The notes below the pieces were generated by a model that was given only the letters and a program-made list of their open reading frames with translations, had not been told where the DNA came from and did not search any database. Positions 10,885 to 64,000 of a stretch of 64,000 nucleotides of DNA are shown here, piece after piece. Each line of letters begins with the position of its first letter. Position 1 is the first letter of the stretch. Where the stretch lies: positions 62,001 through 126,000 of the forward strand of contig JAFRHO010000009.1 of assembly GCA_017433245.1 (NCBI GenBank), given 5' to 3'. The translations under genes and the position numbers were made by a program. The stretch is from Candidatus Saccharimonadota bacterium. Lineage in GTDB: Bacteria; Patescibacteriota; Saccharimonadia; Saccharimonadales; Saccharimonadaceae.

Positions 10885-12840
10885 ATGAGAAGCATAAGAA
10901 CTTATGCGTTTTTGTATGTTGCGCTATTTGCGGTAATGTTTAATGGTGTTTTGCTGTGCCTTTTTGCTTTTGCTGATGATTCTGCTGTTACAGTTACTAC
11001 TATTACCGTTCCGGTTGCTTGTACATTACGTGGTACTGGTACAGCTCATTCGGCTACTCTTTCCCCAAACACTTATTCTGGGGCAAATGGTAGCGAATAC
11101 GAGGATGGCATTGGTAAAACTACTCTTACTGCGATTTGCAATGACGATAATGGGTTTTCCATTTACGCGATTGGATATACTGGTAACTCGTATATTAGCG
11201 AGAATCATACTAAACTAATTGGTAATGACCTGGGTGGCATTATTTCTACTAAAGTTTATGAATCTGGTGATAGTGTTTCGAATTGGTCTATGAAACTAAC
11301 TAAAGTTACTTATGTTACTGAGTCATATAATCCACATAATCTCACTTTAACCACTGGCTATGATTCTTGGCATGTAATACCGGATACTTATACTAAAGTA
11401 GCACAATATAAAGCCAATACTGGTTCCTCTACTACCGATACTACATTAGGAGTTAAACTAGAAACTACTTATGCAGCGTTTATAGCATCTAATCAACCAG
11501 CCGATACTTATGTAGGGCAAGTTAAATACACTATGGTACACCCTTATAACGAAGAGGCATTACAGCCACAGATTACAGAATCTGGTTGTATTAGATATTA
11601 TAAAAATGGTGGTAATGTTGAGGGTACCATGGGCTGCCAGCCGGTTTCAGCATCTGCTACTAACGTAACTCTTCTCGCTTCTAATTATTCCCGTCAAGGT
11701 TATGGGTTTGCTGGCTGGAGTGATGTATATGATTATGAAGTAAACTCTAATGCTCATTTTTATGGCCCTAATGAAGAGATTAGTTTTGAAGCGGGGACAT
11801 ATAGTGGTTCGAACCCTGGTTTGTCTCTTTATGCTGTATGGATAAAGTCGCAAGGATATTTGCAGGATTCAGCTAAGGTAGCAGCTTTGTGTGGCGCAGG
11901 ACAAGATAGTTTAGATTCGGTAGTATTTAGTGTTGATCCAAATAATCAGGATGATTGGTCTATTACTGCTGGATTGAGCAGTGTTACTGCGCTAACCGAT
12001 ACTCGCGATAATGAAACATATGCAGTTGCTAAGTTAAGTGATGGTAATTGTTGGATGATAGAGAATTTAAGATTGTCGAATAAACATCAGGAAAATGGCG
12101 TTACGGTTCCAACAGTTTTAACGTTAGCTAATACCAATAATCCATTAAATGATGGGGTGAATGTTACATTGAAGCACAATTATACTGATACTGAAACCTA
12201 TTCTACTCTTTCGGCTTCGTCTGACGTTATATATAATGAAACTACTGCTCCTGAGGGTTGGTGCAATACAATTTCGGCGGAGTGCATCGATCAATCTCGT
12301 ATTAGAACTGATAATACTACAGATAGGGCATCAAACCCTACGGACAATTTTTATACAAATCTTTATGGCTATGGCAATTATTATAATTGGTATTCCGCTA
12401 CTGCTGGGAGGGGTACTTATAGTAAACTAAATAGTAGTACGGAGGGTGATTTGTGCCCATATGGTTGGCATTTACCTACTGGTACTGGTTCTGGTGAATT
12501 TGGTTTACTTAGTAATAGCTTGGGCGGGCCGAAGAATGCCAATAATGTGGCGGTAACAATGATTAATGGTTCTACTACTCCGACAAATACTGTAATGTTG
12601 CAAAGATTGCGTCATTTTCCTAATAATATAGTGTATTCTGGTAGTTGGAGTGTAGACAATAGCACTACTATTGGGTTTCGCGGTTCGTCTGGTGCATATT
12701 GGTCATCTACGGCTACTACAAGTAATAATGGTATTGCGTACTATTTTGACTATCTAGGAAGCGCTGTTTATCCTGGTACGCGGGGCTATAGAAATAAGTT
12801 TGCCGCCATGACGGTGCGCTGTATTACTTCGGGTATGTAG
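10885..12840 (+). CDS. Secreted surface protein 1 (InlB-like repeat, FISUMP-like C-terminus)
   Basis: A 651-aa exported protein, one of three paralogs in the window. It has a signal or anchor segment (~5-30), a conserved N-terminal domain with TATLSPNTYSGA-type motifs (~35-110), a second conserved segment (TKVAQYKANTGSS...QVKYTMVHPYN), an InlB/Listeria-Bacteroides-type repeat (YGFAGWSD...LSLYAVW, ~295-350), and a C-terminal Fibrobacter-major-paralogous-like domain (NCWMIENLRL ... GYGNYYNW ... WHLPTG ... YWSSTA). Unlike the paralogs at 15875 and 56486, its 3' end is AT-rich like the rest of the gene and lacks their GC-rich cassette. A role in host contact is inferred. The 19-bp palindrome is just upstream of its promoter. 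Confidence 0.85.
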   Translation: MRSIRTYAFLYVALFAVMFNGVLLCLFAFADDSAVTVTTITVPVACTLRGTGTAHSATLSPNTYSGANGSEYEDGIGKTTLTAICNDDNGFSIYAIGYTGNSYISENHTKLIGNDLGGIISTKVYESGDSVSNWSMKLTKVTYVTESYNPHNLTLTTGYDSWHVIPDTYTKVAQYKANTGSSTTDTTLGVKLETTYAAFIASNQPADTYVGQVKYTMVHPYNEEALQPQITESGCIRYYKNGGNVEGTMGCQPVSASATNVTLLASNYSRQGYGFAGWSDVYDYEVNSNAHFYGPNEEISFEAGTYSGSNPGLSLYAVWIKSQGYLQDSAKVAALCGAGQDSLDSVVFSVDPNNQDDWSITAGLSSVTALTDTRDNETYAVAKLSDGNCWMIENLRLSNKHQENGVTVPTVLTLANTNNPLNDGVNVTLKHNYTDTETYSTLSASSDVIYNETTAPEGWCNTISAECIDQSRIRTDNTTDRASNPTDNFYTNLYGYGNYYNWYSATAGRGTYSKLNSSTEGDLCPYGWHLPTGTGSGEFGLLSNSLGGPKNANNVAVTMINGSTTPTNTVMLQRLRHFPNNIVYSGSWSVDNSTTIGFRGSSGAYWSSTATTSNNGIAYYFDYLGSAVYPGTRGYRNKFAAMTVRCITSGM

Positions 12841-15613: not shown

Positions 15614-15620
15614 GTATTAG

Positions 15621-15653
15621 AAAATCCGTCTCTGTATAGTGACGGATTTTTTG
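15621..15653 (+). terminator. Intrinsic terminator after rpmA
   Basis: AAATCCGTC / GACGGATTT stem with a 10-nt loop and a run of T. Confidence 0.9.
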
Positions 15654-15662
15654 ACTAGGTGA

Positions 15663-15690
15663 TTGACGTTTTTTAGTTTATGGATATAAT
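15663..15690 (+). promoter_or_regulatory. Promoter of a very short transcript
   Basis: TTGACG (15663-15668), 16-bp spacer, TATAAT (15685-15690). Start expected near 15697. Confidence 0.65.
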
Positions 15691-15696
15691 AGTTTT

Positions 15697-15749
15697 TTAA
15701 TAGAAACTCCCGAAAGTTGCTAGTCTTCTACTCCGGAGTTTCTTTTTTT
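15697..15749 (+). ncRNA. Candidate ~50-nt RNA or attenuator
   Basis: Begins about 7 nt after a good promoter and consists almost entirely of a hairpin (AGAAACTCC / GGAGTTTCT, 24-nt loop) followed by seven T. It would make a tiny terminated RNA, or serve as an attenuator whose read-through reaches surface protein 2. No family recognised. Confidence 0.45.
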
Positions 15750-15811
15750 GTTTCATCGTGGAAAGGTGGGTGGAAGATGGCTGAAAAAAGAGGCTAGACT
15801 TATGATGCTTG

Positions 15812-15820
15812 TGGTATAAT
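15812..15820 (+). promoter_or_regulatory. Extended -10 promoter of surface protein 2
   Basis: TGGTATAAT with no good -35. It leaves a ~48-nt leader before the chosen ATG at 15875. Confidence 0.65.
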
Positions 15821-15874
15821 GGAGATAGGATTGTGATTAAAAGGTTCATTGCGAACAAAAATGGAATAGCTTAT

Positions 15875-17803
15875 ATGAGAAGAATCTATACTGATTTAGA
15901 TGTAGTATTATGTGTGGTGTGTAGTGCGGTGTGTTTTTCGTTTATAACTAGCTTGTTGCTTGTCGGTAATACCGTGACTGCCGAATCTAGGACTGCCACC
16001 GCCTCCATCACCGTCCCAGAAGCTTGTACTATGACGAGTCACAATGATGCTCCCCATACTGCTACATTATCACCCAATACCTACTCTGGAGCCTCAGGTA
16101 GTGAATATGCAAATGGTATAGGTAAAACTACACTTACTGCTATATGTAATAATGATAATGGCTTCGCTATCTATGCTATTGGTTTCACGGGTAATTCATA
16201 TGACTCAGAGAACCATAATAAACTAGTAGGACAAAGTACTAATGTAGCTATTAATACTGCAGTATATACTAGTGGTGATACTACATCTTCTTGGTCTATG
16301 AAGGTAAATAAGATTGATGATAGTACAGTATCCTATAATCCACAGAACATGTCTATACTAGATAGTTTTGATTCCTGGCATGCAGTACCAGCTACTTATA
16401 CTAAAGTAGCACAGTATAAAGCCAGTACTGGTTCTTCTACTACAGATACTACATTAGGAGCTAAAGTAGAGACTACTTATGCAGCCTACATTGCATCTAA
16501 TCAACCAGCTGATACTTATATAGGGCAAGTTAAGTATACTATGGTACATCCGTATGGTGAACAACCTGCTCAACCACAATCCTCGGCTTCGGGCAAAATC
16601 TGCTACTATGCTAACACTGCAACAGCTGAGGGGACTATGGGGTGCCAAAATATAGCATCTACTGTTACGCTTCTCGCTTCTAACTTTAGTAGACAAGGTT
16701 ATGGCTTTGCTGGTTGGAGTGATAAGTTTGATTATATTACTAATCCTGAAGCTCATTTTTACGGGCCACAAGAACAGTTATCCATTCCAGATACTTCTAT
16801 TTATACTGGGGAAGGTAAGGGGTTATCGCTTTATGCTGTATGGGTGAAATCCGTTGGTAGCTTACAGGACGCATCTAAAGTATCACAGCTCTGCGGCGCT
16901 GGACAAGGTAGTCTCACCGCCGCTCCTACCGATGGCACTGCTAATCTAACCAGTGTTTCCGCTCTTACTGATCAACGTGATAACGAAACGTATGCCATTG
17001 CTAGACTTTCTGATGATAATTGCTGGATGATTGAGAACCTCCGTCTAGAAGCCGAAGACACCAGGACTCCAGAAAAACAAGCTTTAGCTCAAGGTTACGG
17101 AGGTAGCACCACATATGGTGACTTTACTGGTCTCGCCGATGCAGAACCCGCTTGGGCAAATAATATTACTACTGCCAATAGCTTGTATTACAGCGGCACT
17201 CAAGACGGGACTGCGAGTATAGACATTGGTACTGGTAGTAATCCTGCCTACAGATTCCCCCGCTACAACCACGATAACACTAACGCAAGAGCGACTAATC
17301 CTGCTCCGACATCAAATAGTTCCGCAATGTACAGCTATGGCAACTACTATACCTGGCCGGCCGCTATTGCTAACACCACCGCTTACGCTACCAACAATCA
17401 ATCAGTAGAAAACACTTCCATTTGTCCATCTGGTTGGCATCTGCCAAAAGGCGGTAGAAAGGCTAATGTAGCGGTTAGTGTCTTCTGGAAACTATCACGT
17501 ACTATCATTGGAGCAGATCCAACAAACTTTGCTAATGATTACTTCTATTACATAGGTACTCCAGAAGGTACGGATGCTTCTAATAAAATGAGAGCTTATC
17601 CTAACAATTTTGTCTATTCCGGCTACGTCAGCGGTGGCTCAGTGGACTATCGTGGCTCGAACGGCGTTTTCTGGTCTTCTACGGCGAACTCGTCCGACTA
17701 CGCCTACAACCTGTACCTGAGCTCGTACAACGTCGACCCAGGTACGGACGACAGCCGCAAGTACTACGGTGGGACAGTGCGCTGCGTCGCCCCCGGCGTT
17801 TAG
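15875..17803 (+). CDS. Secreted surface protein 2 with variable-region-like C-terminus
   Basis: About 642 aa, paralogous to the proteins at 10885 and 56486, with the same order: signal segment, TATLSPNTYSGASGSEY domain, TKVAQYKASTGSS segment, InlB-like repeat (GYGFAGWSDKFDY...LSLYAVW) and FISUMP-like domain. Codons are AT-ending until 17611, then abruptly GC-ending through the stop: the last 64 residues form a cassette shared gaplessly with the 56486 paralog, but 22 residues differ. Ten of these differ only at codon positions 1-2 of NNC codons. ATG 15875 is chosen because upstream in-frame codons overlap the promoter; its RBS is weak and GTG 15833 is an alternative. Confidence 0.82.
   Translation: MRRIYTDLDVVLCVVCSAVCFSFITSLLLVGNTVTAESRTATASITVPEACTMTSHNDAPHTATLSPNTYSGASGSEYANGIGKTTLTAICNNDNGFAIYAIGFTGNSYDSENHNKLVGQSTNVAINTAVYTSGDTTSSWSMKVNKIDDSTVSYNPQNMSILDSFDSWHAVPATYTKVAQYKASTGSSTTDTTLGAKVETTYAAYIASNQPADTYIGQVKYTMVHPYGEQPAQPQSSASGKICYYANTATAEGTMGCQNIASTVTLLASNFSRQGYGFAGWSDKFDYITNPEAHFYGPQEQLSIPDTSIYTGEGKGLSLYAVWVKSVGSLQDASKVSQLCGAGQGSLTAAPTDGTANLTSVSALTDQRDNETYAIARLSDDNCWMIENLRLEAEDTRTPEKQALAQGYGGSTTYGDFTGLADAEPAWANNITTANSLYYSGTQDGTASIDIGTGSNPAYRFPRYNHDNTNARATNPAPTSNSSAMYSYGNYYTWPAAIANTTAYATNNQSVENTSICPSGWHLPKGGRKANVAVSVFWKLSRTIIGADPTNFANDYFYYIGTPEGTDASNKMRAYPNNFVYSGYVSGGSVDYRGSNGVFWSSTANSSDYAYNLYLSSYNVDPGTDDSRKYYGGTVRCVAPGV
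17612..17803 (+). other. Putative variable region (DGR-type), locus 1
   Basis: GC-rich 192-bp 3' cassette starting at GTCTATTCCGGCTACGTC. Invariant blocks (CGTGGCTCG, TGGTCTTCTACGGC, TACGCCTACAAC, AAGTACTACGG, CGCTGCGTCGC) alternate with codons that differ from the 56486 locus, mostly AAC/TAC/GAC/AGC/GGC. No template repeat or reverse transcriptase is in the window. Confidence 0.5.
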
Positions 17804-17870
17804 CGTTTCTCTGTTCGTGCCGTTCTAGCTCCCTAAAGTGGTGAAGCACTTTAAATAAAATAAGGGTATA

Positions 17871-17907
17871 GAAAATTGTCTGTCGTGGGTGATTTTCTAG
17901 TTTTTTG
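17871..17907 (+). terminator. Terminator after surface protein 2
   Basis: TAGAAAAT / ATTTTCTA stem with a 15-nt loop, followed by GTTTTTT. A smaller hairpin (TAAAGTG / CACTTTA) lies just before it. The rest of 17908-18010 holds nothing I recognise. Confidence 0.7.
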
Positions 17908-18015
17908 GAAGTTGGTACGAAATAGGTCGTCAGGTATAGAATACAATAACCCTTCAGGTTGCTTTAAGCGTGTTGTGGGGGTTCTGGTTTTGTCTGCGAC
18001 GGGTGGGACGAGACG

Positions 18016-18024
18016 TGATATAAT
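18016..18024 (+). promoter_or_regulatory. Extended -10 promoter of the LPG-synthase-like gene
   Basis: TGATATAAT. The first ATG (18027) is only 2 nt downstream and would not be in the mRNA, so the second ATG (18033) is the likely leaderless start. Confidence 0.72.
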
Positions 18025-18032
18025 AGATGTAT

Positions 18033-56116: not shown

Positions 56117-56152
56117 AAATGAACTGGTTTAGGCCAGTTCATTTTTTTTGTT
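56117..56152 (+). terminator. Terminator of the ribosomal operon
   Basis: AATGAACTGG / CCAGTTCATT stem with a 6-nt loop and eight T. Confidence 0.95.
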
Positions 56153-56159
56153 GTTTTTT

Positions 56160-56401
56160 TGTCTACCAAAGCCCACTAATTATTAAGAACTGGACTTGGT
56201 GGTTGTGATAACTACATTATTCGTCAGGTGCGGCGCGTCTTAGCGATGATGCAATGGTTTAGTTATATACAGTTTGCACTGGATGATAAAAATTTATCTA
56301 TATAGTGTGACTGTAACCGACGCTTGCACACTGGAATAATGTAGACATCACAACAGACCAAATCTGTTAAATGTTCTTAATATTTAGTAGGCTTTGGTAG
56401 T
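56160..56401. repeat. 242-bp inverted-repeat element or long-hairpin RNA
   Basis: The ends are ~30-bp inverted repeats with three mismatches (TCTACCAAAGCCCACTAAT vs the reverse of ATTTAGTAGGCTTTGGTAG). Pairing resumes further in (TTGTGAT-CTACATTATTC both sides, then CAG...GCGTC), so nearly the whole stretch folds on itself. No ORF. A weak terminator-like hairpin (ACATC TAAA GGTGT, T5) lies just to the right. Either a MITE-like element or a structured RNA; no promoter is evident immediately left. Confidence 0.7.
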
Positions 56402-56485
56402 CGAAATATCAACATCTAAAGGTGTCTTTTTGTGTATACACTTGAAAATGGTGTCTACTATTAAGGGTACAGTTTAAACTGAAGC

Positions 56486-56677
56486 CTACGCGCCAGGAGC
56501 GACGCAGCGAATAGCCCTCCCGTAGTACTTGTTGCCGTCGAGTGTGCCCGGGTAGACGTAAGACGGACCCAGGTACAAGTTGTAGGCGTAGTAGGACGAA
56601 TAGGCCGTAGAAGACCAATAGTAGACGTACGAGCCACGAGGGTTCACCGAACCGCTGTAGACGTAGCCGGAATAGAC
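56486..56677 (-). other. Putative variable region (DGR-type), locus 2
   Basis: Same 192-bp cassette as 17612-17803. Invariant blocks keep identical nucleotides, while variable codons are mainly TAC/AAC/GTC/CTC/GGC against GAC/AAC/AGC/GGC at the other locus. The encoded stretch is Tyr-rich (SYVYYWSSTAYSSYYAYNLY). Confidence 0.5.
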
Positions 56678-58390
56678 GAAATTAACTGGATATTTGCGCC
56701 AACGTAGAGAGTCTGCGGTAGTGGATTGGTCTTGACCTGTACCACCCATTTTACGATCTAGGTAAGAGAAACCTCCGACTCTGTTGGCGGCATCTGCTTC
56801 GCTTTGTCCTATATCACCTGTACTAGTATTGCCTAGTGGTATTTGCCAGCCAGTTGGGCAGATGGATGTAGTGTTATGGTCTCCACTTGAGTAGGCAGTA
56901 GTGTCTGCAATAGCGGCGTGCCAGGTATAGTAATTACCGTAACTGTACATACCAGCATTAGATGTGCTATTAGTGCTGCTATTGGCGGTTGGGTTTTGTG
57001 GACGGTCTGATTCAGTGGTTGGAGTGTTTACGTTATTGTATCTTGGCATACGATAGGCAGCATTACTAGTACCAATGTTTATAGTGTCATTGCTGCCATC
57101 ATTACTATAAAGGGTATTTGCAGAGTAAGTTGAATTGAATTTATTTGCTGTTTCGGCGTCGGCCAGACCAGAGAAGTTACCATAAGTGGCGCTTGTACCA
57201 TAGCCTTGAGCCAGAGCACCAGTGGAATTGTCACTATTGGTGCTTTCTAATCTTAAGTTTTCAATCATCCAACATTTACCGTCAGCCAGTTTAGCAATAG
57301 CGTAGGTTTCGTTATCACGCTGATCGGTGAGGGCAGAGACGCTGGCAAGGTTAGCAGTACCATCAGTAGGGGCAGTGGTGAGGTTAGAACAGACAGATGC
57401 TACTTTACTAGTGTCTTGAAGATTACCTTGTGATTTAACCCATACAGCATAGAGTGATAAACCTTTACCTTCACCAGTATAAATAGATGTATCAGGAATA
57501 GATAAGTCTTCTTGTGGACCATAGAAGTGGGCTTCATTATTAGTAGCATAGTCAAACTTATCGGACCAACCAGCGAAACCGTAACCCGTTCTACTGAAGT
57601 TAGAGGCGAGAAGTGTAACAGTGGAGGCTACGTCTTGACAGCCCATAGTACCTTCAGCATTACTTGCATTGGCATAGTAGCAGATTTTACCAGAGGCTGA
57701 GGTTTGGGGTTGGGCTGGTACATCATTATATGGATGCACCATAGTGTATTTAACTTGACCTACATAAATATCGGCAGCTTGGTTTGAGGCGATGTAGGCG
57801 GCATAGGTGGTTTCTAGTTTTACACCTAATGTAGTGTCGGTAGCAGAGGAACCGGTATTGGCTTTGTATTGTGCAACCTTAGTATAGGTTGCTGGTACTG
57901 CAATCCAGTTATCATAGTTTGTTGTAATAGTAAGGTTTTCTGGATTATAAGTTATTGGATCTCCTGAACCTGGGTTAGTTATTTTAGTCAGTTTCATAGA
58001 CCAATTTGACGAAGTATCTCCTGATACATAAGCTTTAGTAGCGATAGTACCATTGGTGTTTGTACCGACTAGTTTAGTATGGTTTTCTCCTTCATATTGA
58101 TTACCAGTATAGCCTATAGCATAAATGGAGAAGCCATTATCATCATTACATATAGCAGTTAGGGTAGTCTTTCCAATACCATTCTCATATTCACTACCGC
58201 TTGCTCCGGAATAGGTACCTGGATTTAATGTAGCAGTATGAGTAATACCGGTACCACTCATAGTGCAGGCAACTGGAACAGTTAGCTCTACTGTGTCTAT
58301 GACTTCAGTGTCTGCGGAGACAATGTTTGAAGATAGAGCCATGCCACTAAGCACGGTTGTGGCTAATAGTATGTGTATGGTCTTGTTCAT
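56486..58390 (-). CDS. Secreted surface protein 3 with variable-region-like C-terminus
   Basis: 634 aa, third member of the surface family. Signal peptide (HILLATTVLSGMALSSNIVSA, ~5-26), TATLNPGTYSGASGSEY domain, TKVAQYKANTGSS segment, InlB-like repeat (TGYGFAGWSDKFDY...LSLYAVW) and a FISUMP-like domain. Its last 64 residues are the GC-rich cassette shared with the protein at 15875 (22 of 64 residues differ, no gaps). The minus-strand TGCTAAAAT ends 6 nt before the ATG (leaderless). It sits where the rest of the spc operon would be expected. Confidence 0.85.
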   Translation of the reverse strand: MNKTIHILLATTVLSGMALSSNIVSADTEVIDTVELTVPVACTMSGTGITHTATLNPGTYSGASGSEYENGIGKTTLTAICNDDNGFSIYAIGYTGNQYEGENHTKLVGTNTNGTIATKAYVSGDTSSNWSMKLTKITNPGSGDPITYNPENLTITTNYDNWIAVPATYTKVAQYKANTGSSATDTTLGVKLETTYAAYIASNQAADIYVGQVKYTMVHPYNDVPAQPQTSASGKICYYANASNAEGTMGCQDVASTVTLLASNFSRTGYGFAGWSDKFDYATNNEAHFYGPQEDLSIPDTSIYTGEGKGLSLYAVWVKSQGNLQDTSKVASVCSNLTTAPTDGTANLASVSALTDQRDNETYAIAKLADGKCWMIENLRLESTNSDNSTGALAQGYGTSATYGNFSGLADAETANKFNSTYSANTLYSNDGSNDTINIGTSNAAYRMPRYNNVNTPTTESDRPQNPTANSSTNSTSNAGMYSYGNYYTWHAAIADTTAYSSGDHNTTSICPTGWQIPLGNTSTGDIGQSEADAANRVGGFSYLDRKMGGTGQDQSTTADSLRWRKYPVNFVYSGYVYSGSVNPRGSYVYYWSSTAYSSYYAYNLYLGPSYVYPGTLDGNKYYGRAIRCVAPGA

Positions 58391-59025: not shown

Positions 59026-62000
59026 TTGAAAACACTAAAAAACCTCTTAAAACAGGTAGTGAGTATATCATTAATACCTCTGCTTGTTATTGGCGGTCTT
59101 CCGCTAGAAATAAACAACGTATTTGCAGCTGAGGGAGATGATGTTCCTCCTACTGTTGTAACCGAAGATGCGCCGGTACACAGTAAAACGCTTACGTCTA
59201 ATGGTGATGGGACATATACTATTGCTCTTAGCGTAACTGGCTCTAGAGAAAGTAGCGAGACTACGAGTGCTTCGAAGGCTAACGTTATTCTAGTTGTCGA
59301 TACTTCTAATTCGATGAATGGCAGTAGCGGTGAAACTAATGCATCTGGTCAGCCTATTTCAAGGATTGCTGCAGAAAAAGATGCCCTAACCAAAGACGAC
59401 GGCATCATTGATAAACTTCTTGCTCAAAATGTTCCTGGTGATTCTGTGAGATCTGATATTATCGAGGTTGCCGTGGTAAACTTTGGCACTGAAGGACATA
59501 CTGCTCAAACATGGACCACGAATGGGACTACTTTGAAAAATACTATTAATGGTCTGACGACTTCGACTGGTACTAACTGGGAGGGTGCTCTTCAGATTGC
59601 GAAAGATCTTGCCGATGCAAAAAAGCAAGTACAGCCAAATGAGGATATTTATGTTATCTTTCTAACCGACGGTGAGCCAACGACTGATGAAACTCGCGCT
59701 CGGAACAACCATAACGTTAATACGAAATATGATGAAGAATGGGGATATGCCAGCGATGATGCGAGAGCTATTGTTTCGGCTGGGTATACCTTCTATGGTC
59801 TCTTTACTTGGGGTAGCTCGAGTAACAGTTCAGGTTTTTCGCAGCCTCCTTCTGCTTTTCTCAAAAGTTTAGTCCAATATGCGTATACTGGAACTGGATC
59901 TTATAATAGTTCCCTAAGTTCAGATTATGCTGAATACTACACTAACGCAAGTAGTACTACTTCGCTCATTAATGCGTTAAGCCAAATTGTTCATAATATT
60001 ACTACCGGTGTGGGTTATACTAATGTTGAATTAGAAGATGGTGTCACGGCGATGACTGCTTCTAGTGTTAAAGCTTCAGCTGGTGGTAAAGTAACCGGTC
60101 TTAAGTATTATCGCTCTGGCGGCTCTTACAGTTCAACCGCTAATAATGGTCTTGGCGAAGAATGGACTGATGCTCCTGAGGCAACTATCAACGCGAACAA
60201 TGAAGTAGATTGGAACCTTGGTGATTTGGTTCTCGAAAATGGTGTGACGTATACTGTAACGTTTGTTGTTTGGCCAAAGCAATCATCGCTTGATTTGGTT
60301 GCAGATTTGAATAATGGCATCATATCTTATGATAGCCTTACTGTCTCTCAGAAATCGCAAATTAAGCATATTGGTGATAAATATGCACTTAAAACTAATA
60401 CCGATTCTCCTACTCTTACCTATTCAACAATTACTACTACTACCGTAGATGGCGTTCCTACTTCCGTTACATCCGATCCGACTACTGTCGATATTGAGAA
60501 TCCTGACCCTGTTAATCTTTCTGAAGCTAAATTGGCTCTTGAAAAGAAATGGGAAGATTCTCTTGATCCAACTCAACGCGAAGAAGTTGGTGGTGAAGTG
60601 ACGCTTAATCTTCTTATGGACGGTAAACCATATGAGATTAAAGTCGGCGATACTTTGACAGACAAAATTCTTCTTACCGAAACTAGTGATTGGAAGATTG
60701 ATCCTGGTATTAGCGTGGCTCCCGGTCTTATGGTTGCAGAAAACAGTGTCGCTTACGATCCTAATGCACCTCAGGTATCCTACGGTGGCGTAACGTATGC
60801 CATTCTTGAGGCTGGCCATGAGTATACATTTGAGGAAAAAGGTATCAATAACCACTTCGAGCTCACATCCTATATCCACCATCCAATGAAAATCGGTAAT
60901 GCGGTTAAAGACGTCTTTTTTAGCCGCGATGCTGATGGTAATATTACCGGCATTGAAAGGATTGAAGATCTTGATACGCTTTCTGCTACGAATACGTTGA
61001 AAGGCGGTATTAATATCGAAAAGAAAGTGGTCGACAAAGATAATAAGCCAGTTGACACCAACGATACTTTTGAAATTAAAGTGCATCTTCTTGACAACGA
61101 GGGGGAACCGTATAGTTATGATTACCGTATTTATTATGGCGAGAAGAATCCAGAATATGAATCACATAAAGTATATGATGCTGAAGGTAATTTGAGATTT
61201 AGCCGTAGTGATCATATTTTCGGTGAAGGTACTTTGACCGAGACTCTTTATGTTGGTGACACTATCCGTATTGTTAACGTAGATGCTGGTGTACAGTATC
61301 GTGTTGAAGAAACTGCAAAAAACGGCTACGAGGCAACGCCTACTATTACTTATAAAGAGGCATATGGTACTGAAGCTTCAGGGGATGCTACGGAGGCAGA
61401 AGAGGAAGGCTACTATCTGGTCTCCGGTAACACGGCTTCGTCTGTTACTGTGACTAATAAATTCCTCAATGAGACAACCAAGGTTGATTTTAAAAAGACT
61501 TGGTATGATGCGGATGGAAATGTATTAAGCGGAAAGACTCTTCCTGGCAGCATAACCGTCGAACTATTTAAGAAAGGAGCCGATGGTAAGGAAGTTTCAA
61601 CTGGTGAAACTAGGACAGCTACTGCCGAAACTGACTGGAAGGCTTCGTTTAAGGATTTGCCTAAATATGACAATGGCGCCACGATTGTTTATTCGATTAA
61701 GGAAAGTGCGATTGATGGTGCTACCTATAATGATGAGTTGAAAGCTTTCTTCGAATTTGATTCTGAACAAAACAACGGCAAGAATGCTGTTGTAGGTAAA
61801 TGGACTTGGAAGGTGAAGACCCTTGAAGATTATATTCTTGAAAACACCTGGACGCCGGCAACTGAATCTGTCAGTGGTTTAACCAGCTTTAGTATTAAAA
61901 AGATTGATGCATCAACGAAGAAGCCACTTGAGGGTGCTACGTTTGAACTTAAACTCAGCGATGGTACGACAATCTCTAAAACCACTGATAAGAATGGTGA

Positions 62001-64000
62001 AGCGACCTTTGATAAACTTGATGCCGGTGAGTATTCGCTTAAGGAAACGGTTGCTCCTTCTGATTATCAAGCTATTTTGACTGAGCCAACTATTGTAATC
62101 ACCAAGACTAAAAAACTAAACCAAGTGGATCTTGCTAATTTAAATAATATATATGAATATATCTTTTCGATTTCTGCTGCAAATGTGGCTGGGTATACTT
62201 ATGATACTAATAGTCGTATATATACAGTGAAAAATGAGGCGATTCCTTATATCGATGTTCCTGCTTCTAAAGTCTGGAAGGATGGTGAGAACCGCGATGG
62301 CCTACGAAAGAATTATGCAAATTATTATGTGGCAGTGAGGAATAATAGTGGTAAGTATGTGGCGTACGAAAAACTAGCGCTTGAGGATAAGGATGACTAT
62401 AGTTTTGAGCATTTGCCGACAAAGACCGTGAATGGTGAGGCGATTACTTACGAGATTGTAGAGGCGTCTACTTGTAGCGGTAGTGGCAATAGTATTCAAT
62501 GTACCGAGTTTAAGGGTGATAAGAAGTATAGTGTGTCGATCGAGAATGGTGTAATTACGAATACGTATGAGCCGGAAAAGAAGAAACTGACGATAAAGAA
62601 AACTTGGGATGTATCGGCCGGGACTTTGCCAACTTCTAATCCTTCATTTATCATGGTTGAATTATCAAACGATCAAGGCGATGAACCTCAAACGATTCGT
62701 TTGGAAGGTACTGGCTATGGCGAGTGGACTTCTGATGAGATTTCGGTGTATGTTTATGCAAACCAGGGTAAAACTGTAACTTATCAAGCTACGGAACTCG
62801 GAATTGATGCTGCAAATAACTTGAGTAAAGATAATGATTATACATTATATATTTATAATGGAGAAGTTCTAGAAGGTAAGTGGGTGGCTACTTCTGATGG
62901 GCTTGAAGTGACCAATACTTGGACGCCGGTAAACGAAAAGATCGTGTATGAAGGTGCCGATAAGTTTACGATTAAGAAGATTGATGAAGACGGTGAAGCG
63001 ATGTCTGGTGTGACTTTCACGGTGAATGGGAAGGATAAGAAGACCGATAAGAATGGCGAGATTGAAGTTGCTGTGCCGATTTCAGAGGATGAGAAGACGG
63101 ATAATATAGAGATTAAAGTTAAAGAGAAGGAAACTCTGGACGGATATGATTTAGTAGACGGTTCGGCGACGATAGCAGTAACTTGTACTAGTGAATTAAC
63201 TAAGAAGGACGAAACGACTCTGACGAATACTTATACGAAGACTTGTACTTTCAAGAAGAGCGGTGGTAGTGATTATGTGTGGAATAATTCAGAGAAAACA
63301 TTGGTGGTGACGAATAATCGAAGTTTGGCGGCGTCGCTTGTAATTCGGAAGAAGATTAGTGGCGTGACGGCGGAGGCGCTGAAGAATAATGGTTTGAAGT
63401 TTACTTTGACTGGGCCGGATGATTTTAAGACGCAAGAGATTTCATTTGATGACTTTAAGGAAGTATCTGGTGGCGTGTATGAATACACGGTGCCTGGTAG
63501 AATTCCGACCGGTGAATATAAGGTAGTGGAATCTGGCGCAGAGTTTGATGGTTCACTCACATTGACGGTGACGGGTGATAATAATGTGGCGAAGGATGTT
63601 GAGAAGGACGATGAGGCGGAGTTTGAGATTACGAACAGTTATGAAAAGATTCGGGATGTACATTATAAGGTAAAGAAGATTTGGGATGATAATGACAATC
63701 AGGATGGAAAGCGACCAGAGAAACTTACTATTACATTGATGCGTAAGGGTTCTGGTAAGGCTGAGTCTTACCGAACGGTGGATCTAACGGATGATAAGTT
63801 AGAACACGAATGGACAGATTTGCCACGGGCGGATGAAAATGCTGTGGAATATACTTATTCGGTAGTAGAAGAAGACATAGCTGATTACGATTCGGATGGT
63901 GGTAAGATGGTGGGTGATGTATTCACCTTCACGAATAAGCATGAGCCGGTGACAAAGGAACTTACGTTTAAGAAAGTTTGGAACGTATCGGGTGATAGGT
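59026..64000 (+). CDS. Giant adhesin: vWA domain plus repeated Cna-B domains, 3'-truncated by window edge
   Basis: At least 1658 aa, still open at the right edge. A TTG start follows AAGGAG at 5-nt spacing. Signal peptide KTLKNLLKQVVSISLIPLLV...VFAAEG, then a von Willebrand A domain (~85-325) with MIDAS residues VVDTSNSMNG and FLTDGEPTTDE. The rest is a series of Cna-B/SpaA-like beta domains (for example FSIKKIDASTKKPLEGATFELKL, FTIKKIDEDGEAMSGVTFTV, KVKKIWDDNDNQDGKRPEKLTITL, LTFKKVWNVSGDR). Such domains usually form Lys-Asn isopeptide bonds. It resembles pilus-tip or host-binding adhesins; any cell-wall anchor lies outside the window. Confidence 0.93.
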   Translation, partial: MKTLKNLLKQVVSISLIPLLVIGGLPLEINNVFAAEGDDVPPTVVTEDAPVHSKTLTSNGDGTYTIALSVTGSRESSETTSASKANVILVVDTSNSMNGSSGETNASGQPISRIAAEKDALTKDDGIIDKLLAQNVPGDSVRSDIIEVAVVNFGTEGHTAQTWTTNGTTLKNTINGLTTSTGTNWEGALQIAKDLADAKKQVQPNEDIYVIFLTDGEPTTDETRARNNHNVNTKYDEEWGYASDDARAIVSAGYTFYGLFTWGSSSNSSGFSQPPSAFLKSLVQYAYTGTGSYNSSLSSDYAEYYTNASSTTSLINALSQIVHNITTGVGYTNVELEDGVTAMTASSVKASAGGKVTGLKYYRSGGSYSSTANNGLGEEWTDAPEATINANNEVDWNLGDLVLENGVTYTVTFVVWPKQSSLDLVADLNNGIISYDSLTVSQKSQIKHIGDKYALKTNTDSPTLTYSTITTTTVDGVPTSVTSDPTTVDIENPDPVNLSEAKLALEKKWEDSLDPTQREEVGGEVTLNLLMDGKPYEIKVGDTLTDKILLTETSDWKIDPGISVAPGLMVAENSVAYDPNAPQVSYGGVTYAILEAGHEYTFEEKGINNHFELTSYIHHPMKIGNAVKDVFFSRDADGNITGIERIEDLDTLSATNTLKGGINIEKKVVDKDNKPVDTNDTFEIKVHLLDNEGEPYSYDYRIYYGEKNPEYESHKVYDAEGNLRFSRSDHIFGEGTLTETLYVGDTIRIVNVDAGVQYRVEETAKNGYEATPTITYKEAYGTEASGDATEAEEEGYYLVSGNTASSVTVTNKFLNETTKVDFKKTWYDADGNVLSGKTLPGSITVELFKKGADGKEVSTGETRTATAETDWKASFKDLPKYDNGATIVYSIKESAIDGATYNDELKAFFEFDSEQNNGKNAVVGKWTWKVKTLEDYILENTWTPATESVSGLTSFSIKKIDASTKKPLEGATFELKLSDGTTISKTTDKNGEATFDKLDAGEYSLKETVAPSDYQAILTEPTIVITKTKKLNQVDLANLNNIYEYIFSISAANVAGYTYDTNSRIYTVKNEAIPYIDVPASKVWKDGENRDGLRKNYANYYVAVRNNSGKYVAYEKLALEDKDDYSFEHLPTKTVNGEAITYEIVEASTCSGSGNSIQCTEFKGDKKYSVSIENGVITNTYEPEKKKLTIKKTWDVSAGTLPTSNPSFIMVELSNDQGDEPQTIRLEGTGYGEWTSDEISVYVYANQGKTVTYQATELGIDAANNLSKDNDYTLYIYNGEVLEGKWVATSDGLEVTNTWTPVNEKIVYEGADKFTIKKIDEDGEAMSGVTFTVNGKDKKTDKNGEIEVAVPISEDEKTDNIEIKVKEKETLDGYDLVDGSATIAVTCTSELTKKDETTLTNTYTKTCTFKKSGGSDYVWNNSEKTLVVTNNRSLAASLVIRKKISGVTAEALKNNGLKFTLTGPDDFKTQEISFDDFKEVSGGVYEYTVPGRIPTGEYKVVESGAEFDGSLTLTVTGDNNVAKDVEKDDEAEFEITNSYEKIRDVHYKVKKIWDDNDNQDGKRPEKLTITLMRKGSGKAESYRTVDLTDDKLEHEWTDLPRADENAVEYTYSVVEEDIADYDSDGGKMVGDVFTFTNKHEPVTKELTFKKVWNVSGDR

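Follow-up and report, generated by a model that had tools for sequence, protein, structure and literature searches.

The variable 3' ends of two surface-protein genes in the window are predicted, from sequence comparison, to be products of diversity-generating retroelements (DGRs), and to differ in age. The window is the whole stretch of 64,000 nucleotides that was analysed (G000:C2:62001-126000), taken from a 688-kb assembly that is 78% complete. A predicted DGR, DGR1, lies on the window's own contig, C2, 15 kb upstream of the window. We consider it highly likely that the complete DGR1, a collapsed element at the variable repeat VR2 and a past trans target at VR3 form a set of such products of different age.

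A predicted element upstream of the window

The sequence-only reading had proposed searching the genome for a group-II-like RT accompanied by a ~190-bp template with A at the variable codons. Both were found on C2:

C2:42658-47334, DGR1; in order, FISUMP target gene (+ strand), template TR (+), RT gene (-) and accessory gene (-)
C2:45073-45268, + strand, adenine-rich template of DGR1 (TR, or TR1), 196 bp
C2:3988-8211, a second DGR (DGR2) with the same design as DGR1; its TR-VR differences are 30 at A versus 1 at non-A sites

The template has the sequence FVYSGNVNGGSVNNRGSNGNFWSSTANSSNNAYNLNLNSSNVNPGTNNNNKYNGRTVRCVAPGV and contains 19 AAC/AAT codons. VR1, the cis target of DGR1, differs from it at 21 of 51 A sites and at none of 145 non-A sites (p = 1.3e-14). 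The RT scores above the cut-off for RVT_1, contains IGNLTSQ and YVDD motifs, and matches the structure of the BPP-1 DGR RT (8ub7, 5e-20). The target carries a C-terminal FISUMP domain by TIGR02145; a sequence search returned no PDB relative for this domain, and its AlphaFold model, built from a three-sequence alignment to look for a C-type-lectin fold, has a pLDDT of 31. A hairpin with a 7-bp stem and a 4-nt loop lies downstream of VR1, and among 30 TR-VR pairs from the genus such hairpins follow 14 of the VRs versus 6 of the TRs.

The accessory gene (259 codons, - strand) encodes a protein with no Pfam family above the cut-off. An NCBIfam scan of its relatives gave chance matches only, and the accessory protein of DGR2 matches the Avd model NF033474 weakly (E = 0.005). 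In L055 and L056, two close relatives, a separate ORF corresponds to the C-terminal half of this protein. Models of these ORFs show a bundle of helices, for which the best PDB match is the Avd protein of a Bordetella phage (4dwl), with a probability of 1.00 but an E value of 0.075. Judged by these models, the relatives of the DGR1 accessory protein have an Avd-like fold. With its DGR-type RT, nearby TR, VR and accessory gene, DGR1 is apparently a complete DGR. If it acts as its family does, then the RT would copy the adenine-rich template RNA and misread adenines, which is the signature seen in VR1, and the mutated cDNA would overwrite the last 65 codons of the secreted FISUMP protein.

The region 3' of the template (L010:5260-5420) has a strong predicted RNA fold (z = -4.15) that pairs the flank shared by VR and TR with the antisense of the RT 3' end. 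Possibly it belongs to the template RNA recognised by the RT.

The window cassettes and the VR2 locus

The last 64 codons of the two window genes, 15809-17803 (+) and 56486-58390 (-), align without gaps. They differ at 22 amino acids, ten of them through NNC-to-NNC changes, and ten codons contain silent differences; the gap-free alignment and the counts of 22 and ten amino-acid changes had been given correctly from the sequence alone, as had the presence of some silent differences. Codon usage also switches to GC-ending codons as described, with GC3 rising from 0.31 to 0.78 in the VR2 gene and from 0.32 to 0.77 in the VR3 gene. The cassette in the first gene had been taken to start at this switch, at 17612; the switch is real, but similarity to TR starts 4 bp earlier, at 17608. 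The following features belong to the VR2 locus:

15614-18026, + strand, lineage-specific insert with the VR2 gene and a DGR fossil, between the L27 gene and a flippase-like gene; the site is empty in relatives
15809-17803, + strand, secreted FISUMP-domain surface protein with VR2 (TIGR02145, 58 bits; GC3 of 0.31 for the gene body and 0.78 for its last 64 codons)
17430-17607, + strand, pre-VR block, predicted to be co-copied with VR2 from the DGR1 lineage (dS 0.39 to the VR1 gene versus 1.33 for the gene body)
17608-17803, + strand, VR2, variable repeat (differs from TR at 19/51 A and 10/145 non-A sites)
17804-17829, + strand, 3' flank common to TR, VR1 and VR2 (mismatched to the TR flank at 1/26 positions); a candidate for an IMH-like homing boundary
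17804-17942, + strand, template 3' flank running into an RT tail (89% identical to L010:5270-5408)
17860-17937, - strand, RT C-terminus fossil, 26 codons (22/26 identical to RT residues 382-407, E ~1e-9)
17935-17990, + strand, piece of the region preceding the accessory gene, attached to the RT tail (matches L010:7350-7404 at 84% over 56 bp, E = 3e-11)

Two further features make up the VR3 locus:

56486-58390, - strand, secreted FISUMP-domain surface protein with VR3 (TIGR02145, 63 bits; GC3 of 0.32 for the gene body and 0.77 for its last 64 codons)
56486-56681, - strand, VR3, variable repeat, of a template version common with VR4 on contig C6 (differs from TR1 at 24/51 A and 21/145 non-A sites)

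The adenine-directed pattern that the sequence-only reading had seen between the two gene ends is borne out by the template, and so is its identification of the cassettes as DGR variable repeats, here placed in C-terminal FISUMP domains. Differences to TR are enriched at template adenines in both VR2 (p = 1.2e-6) and VR3 (p = 5.9e-6), and the third base is kept in 18 of 19 (VR2) and 17 of 19 (VR3) AAC/AAT codons. VR4 differs from TR at 26 A and 24 non-A sites. At non-A sites TR1 is 92% identical to VR2 and 85% identical to VR3, while other genus templates remain below 70%. On this sequence evidence, VR2 and VR3 are assigned to the TR1 template lineage.

The proposal that both cassettes are targets of one trans-acting DGR is not supported in a present sense. 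They appear to go back to different template versions, dS between VR2 and VR3 is 0.63, and neither matches TR1 at all non-A sites, which is the yardstick for a current target used in PMC10907252 (10 of 145 such sites differ in VR2 and 21 of 145 in VR3). An origin from different template states explains the silent differences that the earlier reading had held against its own idea. That reading had also described the window as lacking RT, Avd and template. The intact RT and TR do lie outside it, but the 26-codon RT C-terminus at 17937-17860 (-) is inside.

This fossil is part of a larger remnant. The sequence 3' of VR2 follows the flank of the template and not that of the cis target, and it runs into the RT tail, which is joined directly to the fragment from upstream of the accessory gene. 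The RT-accessory operon (~1.95 kb) that would separate these two pieces is absent, and the joint falls at a short TATA-type near-repeat, of which DGR1 has a copy at each end. Also missing is the 694-bp step that leads from VR to TR in DGR1, so that one repeat is left. Remnants of the machinery (RT tail and accessory-upstream fragment) thus occupy 17804-17990, as expected of a degenerate DGR. In six relatives (L150, L151, L152, L154, L155 and L157) the flippase-like gene follows L27 almost directly, which identifies 15614-18026 as a lineage-specific insert.

Silent-site divergence is similar along the block. Between VR2 and the template, dS is 0.27 at non-AAC codons, compared with 0.39 for the 58 codons before the VR (p = 0.6) and 1.33 for the gene body. 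Because VR2 is no less diverged than its flanks, it seems that a block running from ~17430 across the VR and on into the RT-accessory remnants was copied, and has aged, as one. A moderately recent rewriting of VR2 could nevertheless fit, because each segment provides only ~39 silent sites. From these joints, we read VR2 as what a second DGR left behind after losing its RT-accessory operon and fusing its VR with its TR. In the proposed order of events, a second copy of the element would have lost the operon by the deletion seen at the joint, VR and TR would have collapsed into one repeat, and the variant would then have been frozen.

Misassembly was considered as a source of the VR2 locus and rejected; with 11-16% divergence from DGR1, the fossil flanks argue against a chimeric assembly of DGR1. 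No RT or accessory fossil was found at the other fetched FISUMP copies or at the VR-like copies of relatives, and a whole-genome RT search gave no further RT fossil. With a fossil at one locus only, copy-and-collapse is documented once and not as a rule.

VR3, VR4 and competing explanations

VR3 appears to have a different history, seen in its pairing with VR4. In the cassette, dS between the two is 0.11, while it is saturated in the 60 codons upstream and in the gene bodies (p = 5.8e-9). Their mutual differences fall on template adenines (22/51 A versus 11/145 non-A, p = 6e-8). VR3 and VR4 alone have 13 non-A states in common that are absent from TR1, VR1 and VR2, which suggests that another template version wrote both. 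A search with TR1 found no further TR1-like template in the 78%-complete assembly, and none of 33 genus templates is closer to VR3 or VR4 than TR1 is, so we infer a template version that the assembly lacks. The cassettes, homogenised while the gene bodies are saturated, are strong evidence for past mutagenic homing in trans; VR3, like VR4, would have been written from a sister version of the template. The best reading of VR3 is that it was once a trans target, and that the template concerned is now missing or unassembled. With 78% of the genome assembled, another template could still act on VR3 or VR2.

Two observations concern the surroundings of VR3. A 266-bp imperfect palindrome lies just 3' of the VR3 gene (56149-56414; outer arms of 42 nt, 86%; inner arms of 21 nt, 90%; DNA fold z = -10.5). 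It has no Rfam match and no second copy among the fetched loci, and may be a MITE-like or structured element. At 59026-64000 (+) a very long secreted surface protein of more than 1658 codons, which by eye resembles a protein with VWA and Cna-B repeats in the sense of one VWA part plus a Cna-B-repeat part, runs off the window.

Both window cassettes could instead be current trans targets of DGR1, with silent differences that are drift since the last homing event. The adenine-biased differences to TR1 in both, and the 26-bp shared 3' flank that VR2 retains almost intact, would be compatible with this. The 10 and 21 non-A differences are not what live pairs in the genus show, which mostly have 0-1; moreover, VR2 has diverged as much as its flanks, the 13 states that VR3 has in common with VR4 are absent from TR1, and the TR similarity of VR3 ends at its stop codon. 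We regard this explanation as unlikely. Gene conversion between FISUMP paralogues, coupled with diversifying selection on exposed residues and no mutagenic homing at the window loci, is less probable still. There are many FISUMP paralogues, and the similarity between VR1 and VR2 does reach ~180 bp upstream of the VR, past the extent of the template. Such conversion fits poorly, however, with differences that concentrate at template adenines while third bases of AAC/AAT codons are kept, with a VR3-VR4 similarity confined to the template extent, and with an RT tail beside VR2, which is DGR machinery.

The RT tail might also have reached VR2 by retrohoming of an over-long cDNA that was primed downstream of TR, within the antisense of the 3' end of the RT gene. 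Because TR and RT point towards each other, read-through of the template enters RT antisense, and this 3' region is the one that folds strongly as RNA. We give this route almost no credence: it is largely refuted by the part of the fossil that comes from past the opposite end of the RT-accessory operon, a stretch that a cDNA of this kind would lack, and the block upstream of the VR was also co-copied. We therefore retain a collapsed element at VR2 and past homing in trans at VR3.

Occurrence in the genus, known systems and meaning

Of the 36 genomes sampled from the genus, which comprises ruminant-gut Saccharibacteria, 24 have RTs of this kind; when RTs are compared, the closest relatives with a name are Candidatus Saccharibacteria found in goat duodenum and in sheep ileum. 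The template is on the strand opposite to the RT in 32 of the 33 loci with a recognised template. Pooled across the genus, 30 TR-VR pairs contain 645 A versus 54 non-A differences, with one non-A difference at most in 24 of them. A series of ages can be followed within one genome (G006), where A/non-A differences are 22/0 for the cis VR, 24/3 for a remote VR 19 kb away and 27/22 for a further copy. Three genomes (G003, G010 and G018) have no RT match, yet they have 9, 2 and 6 VR-like FISUMP ends, respectively; they are perhaps DGR losers with orphan cassettes. In G017, a second copy of the N-terminus of the accessory gene (L021:2663-2740, 26 codons, 92% identical) lies beyond the RT 3' end and is perhaps a trace of another DGR rearrangement.

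The genome under study (G000) has 92 FISUMP sub-matches. Among the best 30 of these 92, ten end in GC-rich sequence (GC3 0.62-0.85), whereas the other ends range from 0.22 to 0.52, with values of 0.22-0.48 in the regions upstream of the 30. A FISUMP protein at 10885-12840 in the window serves as a natural control without the signature (GC3 0.35). Near the corresponding place, a sheep relative has a full DGR upstream of a TyrRS-like gene (L056:6687-11457).

Many elements of this picture have precedents. The DGR of the Bordetella phage BPP-1 (RT 8ub7, Avd 4dwl), for which target-site rules have been established (PMC3240598), resembles DGR1 in RT family, Avd-like accessory fold and adenine-directed transfer from TR to VR at the 3' end of the target. 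DGR1 differs in that its RT is on the strand opposite TR, its accessory protein has an extra N-terminal part and its target is a FISUMP surface protein rather than a phage tail protein; the downstream hairpin is also not consistently found in the genus loci. In Thiohalocapsa PB-PSB1 (PMC10907252), a complete locus likewise occurs with remote VRs and with degenerate loci formed by duplication and recombination of RT, accessory gene and target C-terminus. The remote VRs there match TR at all non-A sites, whereas VR2 and VR3 do not, and transposon-like repeats degraded copies there, whereas no transposon was found at the VR2 joint. Fib_succ_major (FISUMP) C-terminal domains are known DGR targets in human microbiomes (PMC4159848), in other hosts than here and in a study that did not take remote or fossil copies as its subject. 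DGRs are enriched in CPR/Patescibacteria (PMC8144416; also Paul 2017, as cited in PMC10221324), and inverted-RT G5 cassettes have been described as a minority pattern (PMC6642488). DGRs, FISUMP targets, inverted RTs, CPR DGRs, and degenerate or remote loci are thus all already described. A literature search, with Paul 2017 outside its range, found no Saccharibacteria DGR of the DGR1 design and no FISUMP-DGR in this group. To these the present case adds a collapse joint that can be read in the sequence, a pair of trans cassettes whose age is set against that of the gene bodies, and the wide occurrence within one Saccharibacteria genus.

The FISUMP proteins probably serve as adhesins for ligands on host cells or in the environment. 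A more tentative idea, which we think has some chance of being correct but would not favour, is that in these small-genome Saccharibacteria DGRs keep producing parts of a standing repertoire. In each cycle a copy of the element would reach a new site, VR/TR collapse and RT loss would freeze one diversified adhesin tip, and the template would drift; repetition could account for the dozens of FISUMP domains in the genome, among whose 30 best matches ten still have the GC-rich cassette signature.

The deletion joint at VR2, still readable, shows a route by which DGR targets can turn into orphan variable genes; the survey places DGRs in most of the sampled genomes of a genus of ruminant-gut Saccharibacteria. 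These bacteria have small genomes, and the relatives that have been studied live on other bacteria. If the FISUMP tips bind host bacteria, then the range of hosts could be determined by these elements, and the cassettes, being of different age, would preserve a record of earlier variants.
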